DNA of 45,453 bases from a bacterium (GTDB lineage Bacteria > Actinomycetota > Acidimicrobiia > Spongiisociales > Spongiisociaceae), in assembly GCA_028821235.1 (NCBI GenBank), contig JAPPGV010000148.1, positions 1-45,453 on the forward strand, given 5' to 3'. Positions 2,679 to 6,937 of this stretch are shown in pieces. The notes under the pieces are model-generated. The model was not told the DNA's origin and did no database searches. It was given only the letters and a program-made list of their open reading frames with translations. The translations under genes were made by a program, and so were the position numbers. The stretch's first letter is position 1; every line of letters begins with the position of its first letter.

Positions 2679-4040
2679 ATGTTCGATTACTTGCTCGACT
2701 ACCCCGAGGCCGACCCGGCCCAAGCAAACCCCGCGGTCACCGCCGACGTCCGAGGATCGCATGCCGGCATGTTCATGACCCGCTACCAGAAGGAGCGGCA
2801 GGACGCCTATGACCGCGCTCGCCACATGGTCGAGGGCCGTGGCCATCTAACTCCCGATGTCGAGGACGCCAAGGCCGAAGCTGCGTTGGTTCGGGAGCAG
2901 GCCGCAGTCAGCCGGGCCAGAGGTGGTCAGCTGGGCTGGGTCAAGAGCATGCTGCGGCGCTACAGCGCGGCCCGACTCGGGTACGGCAACCCGGTCGATC
3001 TGGTGGCTTCACGCATGGATGTCCATCGCTCCACCGCCCGTGACCTGGTCTACCTGGCCCAGCGGCTGGACACCAGCGACATCGATCGGATACGCCGGGG
3101 CGAGGTCTCCTACGTCCGTGTCCTGGAGGAGACCCGCCTGCGGGAGGCCGGAGCATCGGCTGAGGAGATAGCCCGGACCCGGGACCTGGACCTCAACTCG
3201 GTCGGACGGATCGTCCAGCAGATGCGAAAGATCACCCGCGATGACGAGCGGCGGATCTTCGAGGGCCAGTACGTAGCGTTCCAGCCCTCCCTGGATGGCT
3301 CCCACGTACGCATGAACGGCCGCCTCGGATCCTTCGAGGCGGAGATATGCCGAGAGGCCCTCAACCGCAGGGGCGAGGCGCTCGTCCCGGCCGGTGAGGA
3401 ACGGCCTGACCCAGGGCAACGCAGGGCGTTGGCCCTCACCACCCTATGCCAGGACGAACTGGACAAGCACCCCCAGGTCGCTCCGGCGGCCGTGCCCGGC
3501 ACCCCATCGCCGCGCAGCCGGCGCGAACCCCTGCTCATGGTCGTGGCCAACAATCCCATCGCCGAGGCGTCGGGCTTCGAGCAAGGCGTCTCCGTCCTGG
3601 CAGGAGGCCGGGTCGGTCCCGGCACCGTGGACCTGATCCAGTGTTCCGGCCGCATCGAGAACATCACGGTGACCGGACAGGACATCAACCGTCACGGATC
3701 CACCTCGACCATCCGGCCCGGTCTGCGGCGGGCTGTCCTCGCCCGCGACGATGGATGCACCATCGACGGGTGCAGCTCCACCTACCGGCTGGATGTTCAC
3801 CACATCCTCGAGCGATCCAGAGGCGGTGATAACTCTCCCGAGAACCTCACCACCCTGTGCTGGTGGCACCACCACGTGGCTGTCCATCGCCGAGGCATGC
3901 GGATCGATCCCCAATCCCCACCGCGCCGCAGGCGCCTGCTACCCGAGCGCAGGGCCTGTGGCTACCGGCCACCACCCCCCGACCCCTACACCCTCGCCGC
4001 ACTTCGGGCCCTCGCCAAGATCAACCGAGCCCCACCGTGA
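2679..4040 (+). CDS. HNH endonuclease, 13E12/DUF222-type
   Basis: A 453-residue protein with a helical, charged N-terminal region (about residues 20-330) and a C-terminal HNH nuclease module. The nuclease shows a CxxxxC pair (CTIDGC), then LDVHHILERSRGGDNSPENL and LCWWHHHVAVH, which match the ββα-metal HNH signature found in REP13E12/DUF222 proteins. These are abundant, often multicopy genes in actinobacterial genomes, suspected to be mobile and with no settled role. The Pro/Arg-rich tail after the nuclease is typical. It stands alone on the plus strand between eno and the tRNA-like gene. Start: ATG at 2679 without a Shine-Dalgarno; an internal ATG near 2769 is an alternative. Confidence 0.88.
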   Translation: MFDYLLDYPEADPAQANPAVTADVRGSHAGMFMTRYQKERQDAYDRARHMVEGRGHLTPDVEDAKAEAALVREQAAVSRARGGQLGWVKSMLRRYSAARLGYGNPVDLVASRMDVHRSTARDLVYLAQRLDTSDIDRIRRGEVSYVRVLEETRLREAGASAEEIARTRDLDLNSVGRIVQQMRKITRDDERRIFEGQYVAFQPSLDGSHVRMNGRLGSFEAEICREALNRRGEALVPAGEERPDPGQRRALALTTLCQDELDKHPQVAPAAVPGTPSPRSRREPLLMVVANNPIAEASGFEQGVSVLAGGRVGPGTVDLIQCSGRIENITVTGQDINRHGSTSTIRPGLRRAVLARDDGCTIDGCSSTYRLDVHHILERSRGGDNSPENLTTLCWWHHHVAVHRRGMRIDPQSPPRRRRLLPERRACGYRPPPPDPYTLAALRALAKINRAPP

Positions 4041-4165
4041 CCCCCAGACTCTCCGATTCGCATCACCCACGCGACGAATCACGATCGCCCGCGCCGAGTG
4101 GAGTCCATTCTTGTGGTGTACGGGGGCGGAGGGGGTGGAGTTATGCTTGAGGGGATTGCGGTGAG

Positions 4166-4256
4166 CGCAAGGTAGCGGAATCGAACCGCAACGCTAGGGT
4201 CTGCTAGCGTTCGAGGGTCCCTGAAACCCTGTCCTGTCCAACAGGCAATACCTTCC
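4166..4256 (-). tRNA. tRNA-like gene with 8/4 acceptor/T-stem layout, anticodon CAG
   Basis: Read on the minus strand, 4256 to 4166 folds as a class II tRNA. Acceptor: GGAAGGTA (4256-4249) against TACCTTGC (4174-4167), 7 of 8 pairs, with a G·G mismatch at the second pair. Anticodon arm: AGGGT/ACCCT around loop TTCAGGG, anticodon CAG. Variable arm: AACGCTAG/CTAGCGTT, 8 perfect pairs around CAGACC. T arm: GCGG-TTCGATT-CCGC, only 4 pairs, abutting the acceptor strand. The putative discriminator (4166) is G and CCA is not encoded. The D arm is unusual: CCTGT-TGG-ACAGG. The 8+4 geometry instead of 7+5 is that of published allo-tRNAs and relatives of tRNA-Sec. G73 with a long variable arm suggests SerRS, while CAG would read leucine CUG. 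It may be functional, regulatory or decayed. Confidence 0.55.
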
Positions 4257-4264
4257 AAACGGTA

Positions 4265-4296
4265 CGACAGGCGACGGTAAGCTCCGTCGCCTGTCG
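4265..4296 (-). promoter_or_regulatory. 13-bp perfect hairpin just upstream of the tRNA-like gene
   Basis: CGACAGGCGACGG (4265-4277) and its exact complement (4284-4296) flank a 6-base centre. The stem ends 9 bases before the first base of the tRNA-like gene on the minus strand, so it would lie in that transcript's 5' leader. Read on the plus strand it is followed by GGCATTTCATTCT, a weak T-rich tract, so it could instead terminate transcription from the HNH side. Orientation is undecided. Confidence 0.5.
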
Positions 4297-4529
4297 GCAT
4301 TTCATTCTAGGCTCACCGCTGAGCGTGCCGTGCCTACCTGCGGTATCGGATCGTCAACACGCTATAACGGGAGTCATGCTCGTTTCCCGGGTCAGTGTGT
4401 TCGGTGGACGGTCGCGCCACGGGTGGGAGAGCCGGCCGGATTCGTAGGCCTGGCGGGAGGAATGTTCCTGACACAGGACAGAGGTGCAAACGATTCGGTC
4501 CCCCTGAGCCTCCGATGGTTACCCGACGG
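4297..4529. other. Gene-free stretch between the tRNA-like gene and mazG
   Basis: No convincing coding frame is seen. There is a plus-strand TATAAC (4363-4368) and several GC-rich inverted segments (around 4430-4460 and 4466-4480), so a structured RNA is conceivable. I compared it by eye with glycine, cobalamin, c-di-GMP and TPP riboswitch signatures and with SRP RNA, and none fitted. Confidence 0.4.
4304..4309 (-). promoter_or_regulatory. Candidate -10 for the tRNA-like gene
   Basis: On the minus strand TAGAAT (4309-4304) sits upstream of the 13-bp hairpin and points toward the tRNA-like gene. It matches the TATAAT consensus at 5 of 6 positions. No good -35 lies 17-18 bases upstream. If used, the transcript would start in or next to the hairpin. 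Confidence 0.3.
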
Positions 4530-6035
4530 CTAGTGGCGTTCCTCTTGTTTGGCCTTTTCCCACAGGGCGTCGAGGCGGTTCAGGTCGGCGGCGGCTAGGT
4601 CGTCTAGTTCCTCCATGCGGCGGAAACGGGTCTCGAAGCGGTTGACGGCCTTGCGGAGTGCCAGCTCAGGTGGCACGCCTAGGTGCCGGGCCAGGTTGGT
4701 CACCGCGAACAACACGTCGCCCAGCTCGTGGTCGGCGTCCTCCGGGCGAGCTTCCTCGCCCTGGTCTATCACCTCGACCAGCTCGGCGATCTCCTCCTCC
4801 ACGTCGCCTACCACCGAACGGGCGTCTGGCCAGTCGAACCCCACCCGGGCGGCTCGCTTCTGGAGCTTGACCGCCCGGTCCAATCCGGGAAGAGCGCTCG
4901 GCACGCCGTCCATCAGCGATTCACGATGCTTCTCGCCCGCCTTGATCTCCACCCAGTTGGCGATCACCTCCTCGGCGTCCTGGACCCCGAGGGTGCCGAA
5001 CACGTGAGGATGGCGGCGCACCAGCTTGCGCCGGAGGGTCTCGGCCACGTCCTCGACGTCGAACGCCCCCGTCTCCGAGGCGAGGTTGGAATGGAAGATC
5101 ACCTGCAGGAGGACGTCGCCTAGTTCCTCCTCCACGTCGTGGTAGGCCACGTAGTCGATCTCATCCCCGCCGGGGGCGCCGTGAGGGAGCCGGCCGATGG
5201 CCTCCAGTAGCTCGAAGGTCTCCTCCAGGGCGTATGGAGTGAGCGAGTAGTGGGTCTGCCGCCGGTCCCATGGACACTCCGTCCTCAGCCGGCGCATCGC
5301 CCGGATGGCCCCGACGAGGCCGGTCTCGGGAGGGTCGAGGAACAGGCTGGTGCGCGCACCAGCCGCATCGGCGGGGACGTCGCCGATCGGGTAGGTACGG
5401 ACCAGGGCTTTCTCGGTGCCGAGGTCCGACAGCACGGTTACCGGGGTGCCTTCGGGGAGGGTGCGTCCGAGCCGGCGCAGCGCCTCGTCGAGAACCGGTC
5501 CGGTGTCCACCTGGAACACCACCGTCGGCAGGTGCAACATCAGGGGATCCGGCAGGTCCCGGCCGTCCAGTACCGTGAAGCCGCGCTCGGTTGGGTCCAG
5601 CTGAAGGGCGGAGAACACCTCGTCGAGGAACGAGGGGGCATGTAGCAATTCGACCGGCCGGCCCGCGGCCCGGCAGCGCGCTCTCAGTTCGGCGACGGTG
5701 CGTTCCCCGTAGAGCGGGCTACCCGGCGTCGCGTAGATCACGGGGCCCGTCTCCGCCGCCGCCAGCACCCTCGACACGATGGCCTCGTACACCTCGTCGA
5801 ACGTCTCGCCGGCGTCATAGAGGTCGTCACAGGTGGTCACCCGGCGCCTCTGCGCCAACTGGGCGGCGGCGGGGTGCTGCCCGGTGCGGAGGATCACCCG
5901 GCGATCGGGATCCAGTAATGCCGCCCGGACCCCGGCGGGAGTCCGGGAGAGATCTCCGGCCCCGAGGCCGGCGACGAACAGGGCTTCGTTCAGGATTCCG
6001 GCGGGATGATGTTGGGGCTCGGGTCGGTCGTCCAC
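4530..6035 (-). CDS. mazG: MazG-family NTP pyrophosphohydrolase with N-terminal methylase-like domain (YabN-type)
   Basis: About 501 residues. The C-terminal half has two MazG repeats: the first around ECPWDRRQTHYSLTPYALEE and DVEEELGDVLLQV (about residues 250-330), the second around DVEEEIAELVE and ADHELGDVLFAVTNLARHL. These EExxE...ExxD motifs bind Mg and hydrolyse nucleoside triphosphates, a housecleaning role. The N-terminal ~220 residues resemble a tetrapyrrole (SAM) methylase fold (LFVAGLGAGDLS at the start, then IYATPGSPLYGE), as in Bacillus YabN. The start is uncertain. GTG at 6035 overlaps the upstream foldase gene by 46 bases; a longer ATG at 6101 and a CTG at 5993 are alternatives. 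Confidence 0.9.
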   Translation of the reverse strand: MDDRPEPQHHPAGILNEALFVAGLGAGDLSRTPAGVRAALLDPDRRVILRTGQHPAAAQLAQRRRVTTCDDLYDAGETFDEVYEAIVSRVLAAAETGPVIYATPGSPLYGERTVAELRARCRAAGRPVELLHAPSFLDEVFSALQLDPTERGFTVLDGRDLPDPLMLHLPTVVFQVDTGPVLDEALRRLGRTLPEGTPVTVLSDLGTEKALVRTYPIGDVPADAAGARTSLFLDPPETGLVGAIRAMRRLRTECPWDRRQTHYSLTPYALEETFELLEAIGRLPHGAPGGDEIDYVAYHDVEEELGDVLLQVIFHSNLASETGAFDVEDVAETLRRKLVRRHPHVFGTLGVQDAEEVIANWVEIKAGEKHRESLMDGVPSALPGLDRAVKLQKRAARVGFDWPDARSVVGDVEEEIAELVEVIDQGEEARPEDADHELGDVLFAVTNLARHLGVPPELALRKAVNRFETRFRRMEELDDLAAADLNRLDALWEKAKQEERH

Positions 6036-6937
6036 GTTCCGTACTCGGGTTCTACGGTGACTTCTGCTTCCGTGAGGACATTGGTCAGCCACTCCACCCA
6101 TCGCCGGTTACCGTCCGACAGCCGCAGGTCCTCGGCCAGCCCTTCCCGGACATCCTCGAATGCGGGAACAGTCCGCGCGTTCACCAGGATCACGTGCCAA
6201 CCGAAGTTGGATTGGACCGGTCCGAACGGGATGCCCACCTCGGCCTCGAGGGTGGCGGCGGCGAACTCGGCAACGTACGTAGCAGGGGAGGAGCACCCCA
6301 GGTCGCCCCCGTTGGGGCCGCTCGGCCCGGTTGACAACTCCATCGCCAAGGCGCCGAAGTCCTCTCCTGCCACGGCGCGGTCGTAGGCGGCGTTGCCTTC
6401 CTCCTCGGTCTCGAGGAGGATATGGGCGGCGCAGACCTGGCTGAGCTCACCGAGCGACGCCTCGTAGATCGCCATCAGCTCCTCTTCGGCGGGGGGACCG
6501 GCGCCGGCCACGAGTTCCTGCGCCACCTGCTCGGCGGTGACTTCCTGTGCCGCGATGAGACGGAGCGAGGCCTCGGTCAGGCCGTAGGTCTCGTAGATCT
6601 GCTCGGCGGTGAGGCCGGTTTGCAGGAGCAGTTCTCCAAGCTTGGCGTCGATCTGCTGCTCGGTCCGGACCACGCCGAACTGTTGCTCGGCCTGCGAGGA
6701 CATCACCCGGTCGGCCACCACCAGCATCAGCGAGTTGGCGAAGCGGGCGACGTCAACCGTGTCGCCCGCATCGGGGATCAAGACGGACACCTCGTCGAAG
6801 GTGATCGGTTCGCCGTCAACCGTGGCCACCTCGCCGGTGCTCCCGCACGCTACGAGGAGAGCCGCTGCCAACGACGCGAACGCGAGGAAGGCCGGACGGA
6901 CCCGGGTTCCCCGGCGTCCGGTGATGAGGTTTAGCAA
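5990..6937 (-). CDS. PpiC/parvulin-type peptidyl-prolyl isomerase lipoprotein (PrsA/SurA-like)
   Basis: A 315-residue secreted foldase. A basic N-terminus and hydrophobic stretch end in lipobox LLVAC (about residues 26-30), so it should be lipid-anchored outside the membrane. A SurA-N-like helical region follows, then a parvulin domain (CAAHILLETEEEGNAAYD, GPSGPNGGDLGC, FGPVQSNFGWHVILV). I chose TTG at 6937 because a strong AGGAAGGAG lies at the right distance upstream. The open frame runs further back through a dispersed repeat, and those residues are spurious. Its stop lies at the mazG start, so the two genes are probably cotranscribed. Confidence 0.9.
   Translation of the reverse strand: MLNLITGRRGTRVRPAFLAFASLAAALLVACGSTGEVATVDGEPITFDEVSVLIPDAGDTVDVARFANSLMLVVADRVMSSQAEQQFGVVRTEQQIDAKLGELLLQTGLTAEQIYETYGLTEASLRLIAAQEVTAEQVAQELVAGAGPPAEEELMAIYEASLGELSQVCAAHILLETEEEGNAAYDRAVAGEDFGALAMELSTGPSGPNGGDLGCSSPATYVAEFAAATLEAEVGIPFGPVQSNFGWHVILVNARTVPAFEDVREGLAEDLRLSDGNRRWVEWLTNVLTEAEVTVEPEYGTWTTDPSPNIIPPES

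Follow-up and report, generated by a model that had tools for sequence, protein, structure and literature searches.

The gene on the minus strand of the window (the whole 45,453-nucleotide stretch of DNA analysed here), running from 4256 to 4166, is best explained as one of a family of dispersed 8/4 allo-tRNAs with serine identity, which would give low or conditional serine missense at CUG, CUC and GUG codons. We put the probability of this reading at about 0.5. The defining features of the gene are the anticodon CAG, G73 and an 8-bp V-arm.

In minus-strand order, the 5' part of the gene is GGAAGGTA TT G CCTGT TGG ACAGG A CAGGGT TTCAGGG ACCCTC G and the 3' part is AACGCTAG CAGACC CTAGCGTT GCGG TTCGATT CCGC TACCTTGC G, with G1 at 4256, the anticodon at 4223-4221 and G73 at 4166. 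The 8-nt 5' strand of the acceptor, GGAAGGTA (4249..4256), faces TACCTTGC at 4174-4167 through seven standard pairs and one G2-G71 mismatch. The D arm (4233..4245) has a 5-bp stem, CCTGT/ACAGG, and the 3-nt loop TGG. In the anticodon arm (4213..4231), the 6-nt strands CAGGGT/ACCCTC enclose the loop TTCAGGG; five pairs (AGGGU/ACCCU) are perfect, the outer sixth pair is a nonstandard C-C, and the anticodon is set in U33-CAG-G37. The V-arm (4190..4211) is a perfect 8-bp stem, AACGCTAG/CTAGCGTT, with strands at 4211-4204 and 4197-4190, and the T arm (4175..4189), a 4-bp GCGG/CCGC stem with the loop TTCGATT, is joined directly to the acceptor.

An earlier, sequence-only reading of this DNA had listed the 8/4 layout, the TTCGATT T-loop, U33-CAG-G37, the 8-bp V-arm, G73 and one acceptor mismatch, and all of these are indeed present. 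It had named no strand; the parts are confirmed when read on the minus strand, 4256-4166. Its perfect 5-bp anticodon stem holds for the five inner pairs, but the family stem is 6 nt long, with the C-C outer pair in the window. The lack of an encoded CCA after G73 (4166) is likewise real, but it is not telling, because in the parts of this genome that were sampled ARAGORN predicts 49 tRNA genes, of which only about 10 encode CCA. The leader hairpin, the pairing trailer, the paralogues and the dispersal described below were all absent from that reading.

Single-sequence folding of the gene is modest compared with shuffles (z -2.1), and the Rfam tRNA model gives no hit for it. The covariance model R3, built from relatives only, with no window sequence, scores the gene at 58.0 bits (E 5e-11), and the next match in the window reaches 16.4 bits. 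This independent match, together with covariation, rules out a chance fold; as judged by comparison with its relatives, the sequence at 4256-4166 is a genuine tRNA-like gene of unusual build. Covariation was assessed in an alignment of 11 sequences and 41 pairs, leader hairpin included, with shuffles and slid registers as controls. Paired cells make up 89.6% of the alignment (98.9% in the acceptor, 97.7% in the T stem), and two-sided changes occur at 13 pairs, compared with 5.6 in shuffles and 1-3 in the slid controls. Compensatory changes are found in the 8-bp acceptor, the 4-bp T stem, the 5-bp D stem, the 6-nt anticodon stem and the V stem. At the third acceptor pair, A-U, C-G and U-A all occur, and at the fourth A-U and G-C; one T-stem pair is C-G or U-A, one D-stem pair U-A or A-U, and one anticodon-stem pair C-G or A-U. 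The last pair of the anticodon stem is U-A, C-G or C-A, the latter in most copies. This pattern of substitution indicates that the stems of the 8/4 cloverleaf are under selection. Related homologues without conserved stems had been named as the outcome that would speak against the gene; the stems were found to be kept, and because the homologues carry compensatory changes, the proposed 8/4 allo-tRNA with serine-type features is supported.

Elements relevant to charging and decoding are conserved as well. The D-loop GG and the T-loop TTCRANT are kept across the family, and the genus copies keep U33 and a purine at 37. G73 and G1-C72 are present in all genus copies, and G2-C71, which has been described as an absolutely conserved pair in E. 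coli and is also found in the normal tRNA-Ser of this genome, is present in every aligned genus copy except that of the window. The serine identity set (G73, G1-C72, G2-C71 and the V-arm) is therefore complete in the genus family, the window copy having G2-G71 instead. The two features that had been raised as doubts, the 3-nt D loop and the G·G mismatch, are both real in the window, but the aligned relatives of the genus keep G2-C71. The window gene is the most divergent intact copy in the genus and its D loop is shortened; since it combines the mismatch with the greatest divergence, it may be a weak or decaying member of the family.

It should be noted that the host also has normal tRNAs. In the stretches taken from the genome, ARAGORN finds normal tRNA-Leu(CAG), tRNA-Leu(GAG), tRNA-Val(CAC) and tRNA-Ser (UGA and GCU); the other serine isoacceptors were not found in the same stretches and may lie in assembly gaps. 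The normal tRNA-Leu(CAG), for which a search had been suggested, is at C8 and has a 7/5 branch and A73, while a standard 8/5 tRNA-Sec(UCA), the selC product also sought, is at C79. One serS gene above the cut-off is present in each genus genome, this genome included, except for G007, in which none was found above the cut-off. In none of the genus genomes searched did more than one full serS score above the cut-off, so no private SerRS was found. Given the normal tRNA-Leu(CAG), the tRNA-Sec(UCA) and the single SerRS, the allo-tRNA is an extra tRNA beside the normal set.

The same data bear on two readings that would make the gene a variant of a familiar tRNA. ARAGORN labels it tRNA-Leu(CAG), but we regard an ordinary or degenerate tRNA of this kind as very improbable. 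The genome already has the normal 7/5, A73 tRNA-Leu(CAG), to which the window gene is 65% identical, as against 70-74% to the paralogues, among which a valine (CAC) anticodon occurs. On account of the 8/4 layout and G73 as well, we reject a plain tRNA-Leu(CAG). A selenocysteine tRNA with a sense anticodon is just as improbable. Such tRNAs are known (PMC7609411), tRNA-Sec (RF01852) is the best Rfam match, and SelA, which the sequence-only reading had proposed to look for, is present in all nine sampled genus-mates. The match, however, reaches 31.8 bits, below the Rfam cut-off of 47; in the family, the 8/4 branch measures 12 bp and the D stem 5 bp, instead of 13 bp and 6 bp; and the genus copies resemble tRNA-Sec (0.63-0.68) no more than tRNA-Ser (0.64-0.69). 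With a separate tRNA-Sec(UCA) in the genome, these differences of branch, D stem and score lead us to reject a tRNA-Sec identity. SelA was not found in the present assembly, G000, though its tRNA-Sec is there; an assembly gap may account for this.

A DNA search found a paralogue in the same genome, at C149 (E 4e-6), and a wider search added a third copy at C27, together with copies in genus-mates, so that this genome has three. In a covariance-model scan of 395 genomes of the class, strong matches (77-114 bits) were confined to seven of the ten genomes of the genus; no allo-tRNA was found in the other three (G001, G004 and G009). The family anticodons are CAG, GAG and CAC. Locus 1, which is flanked by queG and a gene for an FAD oxidoreductase, has CAG in G000, G006 and G007 and GAG in G002, G005 and G008; thus, its orthologues swap anticodons while the tRNA body stays. 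Locus 2, flanked by a pdxR-like gene and one for a GcvT-domain oxidoreductase, has CAC in G000, G003 and G005, and locus 4, beside a glucose/sorbosone dehydrogenase gene, has GAG in G002 and G005. The proximity of locus 1 to queG (L075 1510-3011), whose product, epoxyqueuosine reductase, acts in tRNA modification, is probably due to chance.

Outside the genus, the same scan gave one remote match, in G049, from another family of the order. This copy (L086 991-1077) is 8/4, with acceptor, D, V and T arms and a strong leader hairpin of its own, and its anticodon arm is broken; it is possibly a non-decoding relative. A model of diverse members detected such 8/4 tRNAs in two further genera, which belong to another family of the phylum: in G487 (L187 1501-1594; 58.7 bits; anticodon loop CCGAGAC) and G643 (L188 1501-1591; 47.2 bits; anticodon loop TCGCCAA). 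Both have C33 instead of U33, strong V-arms and no obvious leader hairpin. Two further candidates were discarded: L189 (44 bits) has no tRNA fold, and L178 is a normal tRNA-Sec. Pattern matches in Pseudomonas, Endozoicomonas and similar non-acidimicrobial genomes contain no allo-tRNA according to ARAGORN and were taken as chance. Searches of phage and plasmid collections gave no match to the allo-tRNA unit; among viral contigs, a short pattern gave chance matches, none convincing with the covariance model, and a longer pattern gave two matches, neither of which holds a tRNA.

The family is not tied to one genomic position. The window unit occupies a 489-bp intergenic gap (4041..4529) between convergent genes, one for a 453-aa HNH endonuclease-domain protein (2679..4040, plus strand) and the other for a MazG/YabN-type nucleoside triphosphate pyrophosphohydrolase (4530..6101, minus strand). 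The same gap in the seven genus-mates that have both genes is 8-133 bp long and has no allo-tRNA. The locus 2 gap is similarly short and without the allo-tRNA in G001 and G004; at this locus, G002 has lost 74 bp, including the 3' half of the gene, and G006 about 259 bp, including the whole unit. At locus 1, the acceptor and T stem are disrupted in G003, and truncated tandem copies lie about 320 bp downstream in G005 and G007. These tandem copies (L080 6123-6200 and L084 4321-4398) keep the leader hairpin, the 5' acceptor strand and the D arm, and the T arm is absent. A 255-bp segment shared with locus 2 at 87% was also found in L033 (3202-3466), a contig whose MAG carries the label Gammaproteobacteria. 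Its neighbours there are unrelated (AAA ATPase and Calx-beta), and the segment would reflect either misbinning or transfer. Across these contexts the shared unit measures 150-255 bp. Comparison of the loci indicates that the unit is dispersed among unrelated gene gaps and has been gained, has decayed and has been lost between close relatives. The losses and disruptions in G002, G006 and G003, together with the absence from G001, G004 and G009, mean that the gene is dispensable.

Such a distribution would also be expected if the unit were above all a mobile or selfish element, small and non-autonomous, with decaying copies and a tRNA-like body of no function to the host. The recurrence of one unit in unrelated contexts, L033 among them, the short, empty gaps between convergent genes in relatives, the truncated tandem copies and the imperfect 17-bp direct repeats (82%) that flank the window insert (4041-4057 and 4500-4516) all point in this direction. 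Nevertheless, we consider it unlikely. We found neither a transposase nor a clean target duplication nor any terminal repeats in common, for which reason we call the family dispersed rather than a transposon; the losses examined are not precise excisions; and compensatory changes in every tRNA helix argue for selection on the RNA fold.

The conserved unit extends beyond the tRNA. In the window, a leader hairpin of 13 perfect base pairs lies at 4265..4296 on the minus strand (strands 4265-4277 and 4284-4296), and every genus copy has such a hairpin, ending 9-14 nt upstream of G1. Its core covaries, with A-U/G-C changes at two pairs. The G049 hairpin is different and equally strong; because it does not align in register with the others, its cells in the covariation alignment give no meaningful support. 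Among orthologues, the leader is 0.93-1.00 conserved versus 0.88-1.00 for the tRNA, and in most comparisons its conservation equals or exceeds that of the tRNA; tRNA and leader are 88-100% identical, and the region 41-160 nt downstream often falls to 50-60%. Read on the plus strand, the window hairpin is a terminator-like stem, and hairpins located at promoters may just as well serve as operators at the DNA level. A promoter scan gave no consensus promoter; a possible, weak -10 box, TAGAAT (4304..4309, minus strand), was read from the sequence. A role as cis-regulatory leader of a gene was discarded, the neighbours differing at each locus and those in the window being convergent.

On the other side of the tRNA, the trailer ACCGCAA (4156..4162, minus strand) is complementary to 4186-4193, that is, to the 3' strand of the V-arm and the 5' strand of the T stem. 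The complement spans 8 bp at loci 1 and 2, 7 bp in both the window and L033, and 6 bp at locus 4, and it is absent in G049. Complementarity has p values of 0.0004-0.03 in five sequences and of 0.055 in G008, and each trailer pairs best within its own lineage, a pattern that holds over four loci, except that the window and locus 1 trailers are interchangeable. The trailer helix would be an alternative fold that excludes the T arm. In the window copy only, a perfect 9-bp inverted repeat (4158..4166 with 4311-4319) encloses hairpin and tRNA.

These flanking elements suggest that the RNA may act outside decoding, either as a tRNA mimic that occupies SerRS, SelA, EF-Tu or a processing enzyme or as a regulatory switch RNA built from leader and trailer. 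In our opinion, this is a real but minority possibility. The conservation and covariation of the leader favour it, as do the tracking of V- and T-arm sequence by the trailer complement and the G049 copy, which keeps four arms and a hairpin despite its broken anticodon arm. Moreover, SelA, present in the genus-mates, binds long-D-stem 9/3 allo-tRNAs (PMC7590224). The genus copies, however, keep U33, purine 37 and an anticodon stem of 5-6 pairs, which would be needless without decoding, and no conserved neighbouring gene offers a clear target. A combination of the two ideas, in which leader hairpin and trailer would hold the RNA inactive until a signal such as stress, phage or host contact and so make mistranslation switchable, seems to us rather unlikely; if true, a signal would place serine at the commonest leucine and valine codons proteome-wide.

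Under the serine-missense reading, which we prefer, the unit would be transcribed together with its leader hairpin, RNase P would trim the precursor and a nucleotidyltransferase would add CCA. The single host SerRS, blind to the anticodon, would then charge the allo-tRNA with serine, and the product would rival tRNA-Leu and tRNA-Val at CUG, CUC and GUG. Recognition by SerRS depends on the long V-arm, the acceptor end and G73 and not on the anticodon, and G73 repels LeuRS in E. coli (PMC9976931); other allo-tRNAs put serine at leucine codons in E. coli (PMC7609411). The family fits SerRS charging, and the anticodon switch at locus 1, with the body kept, suits an anticodon-blind synthetase. In 14 neighbouring genes, CTG and CTC make up 49% and 35% of leucine codons and GTG 46% of valine codons, so the family anticodons face very common codons. 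Misreading them should be costly, which counts against decoding; misinsertion is for that reason presumably limited or conditional. Further counterpoints are the C-A at the last anticodon-stem pair in most copies, the G2-G71 of the window copy and the dispensability of the gene, and irregular allo-tRNAs unusable by E. coli were reported by Mukai et al. (2017), as summarized in PMC7609411.

The role of natural allo-tRNAs in their own hosts is still called speculative in the review sections that treat them. A multi-copy family within one genus, with orthologues, gains, losses, anticodon switches, one SerRS and normal tRNAs, is a clean comparative system in which to ask whether serine mistranslation can be something that bacteria encode on purpose. 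For mutation, the leader hairpin and the pairing trailer are concrete targets, and the family widens the set of natural 8/4 scaffolds available to work on the genetic code.

Several known systems are partly similar. Bacterial tRNA-Sec (RF01852) shares the 8-bp acceptor, long V-arm, long D stem with a tiny loop and G73; the window gene differs in being 8/4 rather than 8/5, with a D stem of 5 rather than 6 bp and an anticodon other than UCA. The tRNA-Ser(CAG) of the Candida CUG clade is also a serine-type tRNA with a CAG anticodon, but there CUG was reassigned and tRNA-Leu(CAG) lost, whereas here tRNA-Leu(CAG) is kept and CUG is the commonest leucine codon (PMC11415595). Streptomyces tRNA-ProX and ProRSx likewise involve extra actinobacterial tRNAs of hybrid identity with expected sense-codon mistranslation; that system has a dedicated synthetase, while here the search gave no second serS, and the tRNA departs from the canonical shape (PMC11415595). 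The closest likeness is to the allo-tRNAs of Mukai et al. (2017; NAR 45:2776), which, in the account given by PMC7609411, have a 12-bp 8/4 branch, a long V-arm and a long anticodon stem, combine serine-type features with anticodons that are not those of serine, include degenerate copies and have been linked tentatively to mobile elements. Their hosts in that account are Clostridia, Proteobacteria and Acidobacteria, whereas the present host belongs to Acidimicrobiia, a class that no text found in our literature search links with allo-tRNA. The review passages on these tRNAs mention neither a leader hairpin, a pairing trailer or a 150-255-bp unit dispersed in one genus nor the anticodons CAG, GAG and CAC on the commonest leucine and valine codons. 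By structure, as far as the reviewed descriptions go, the family belongs with these 8/4 allo-tRNAs; compared with those descriptions, its host class, leader hairpin, pairing trailer and dispersal with orthologues in one genus are new.
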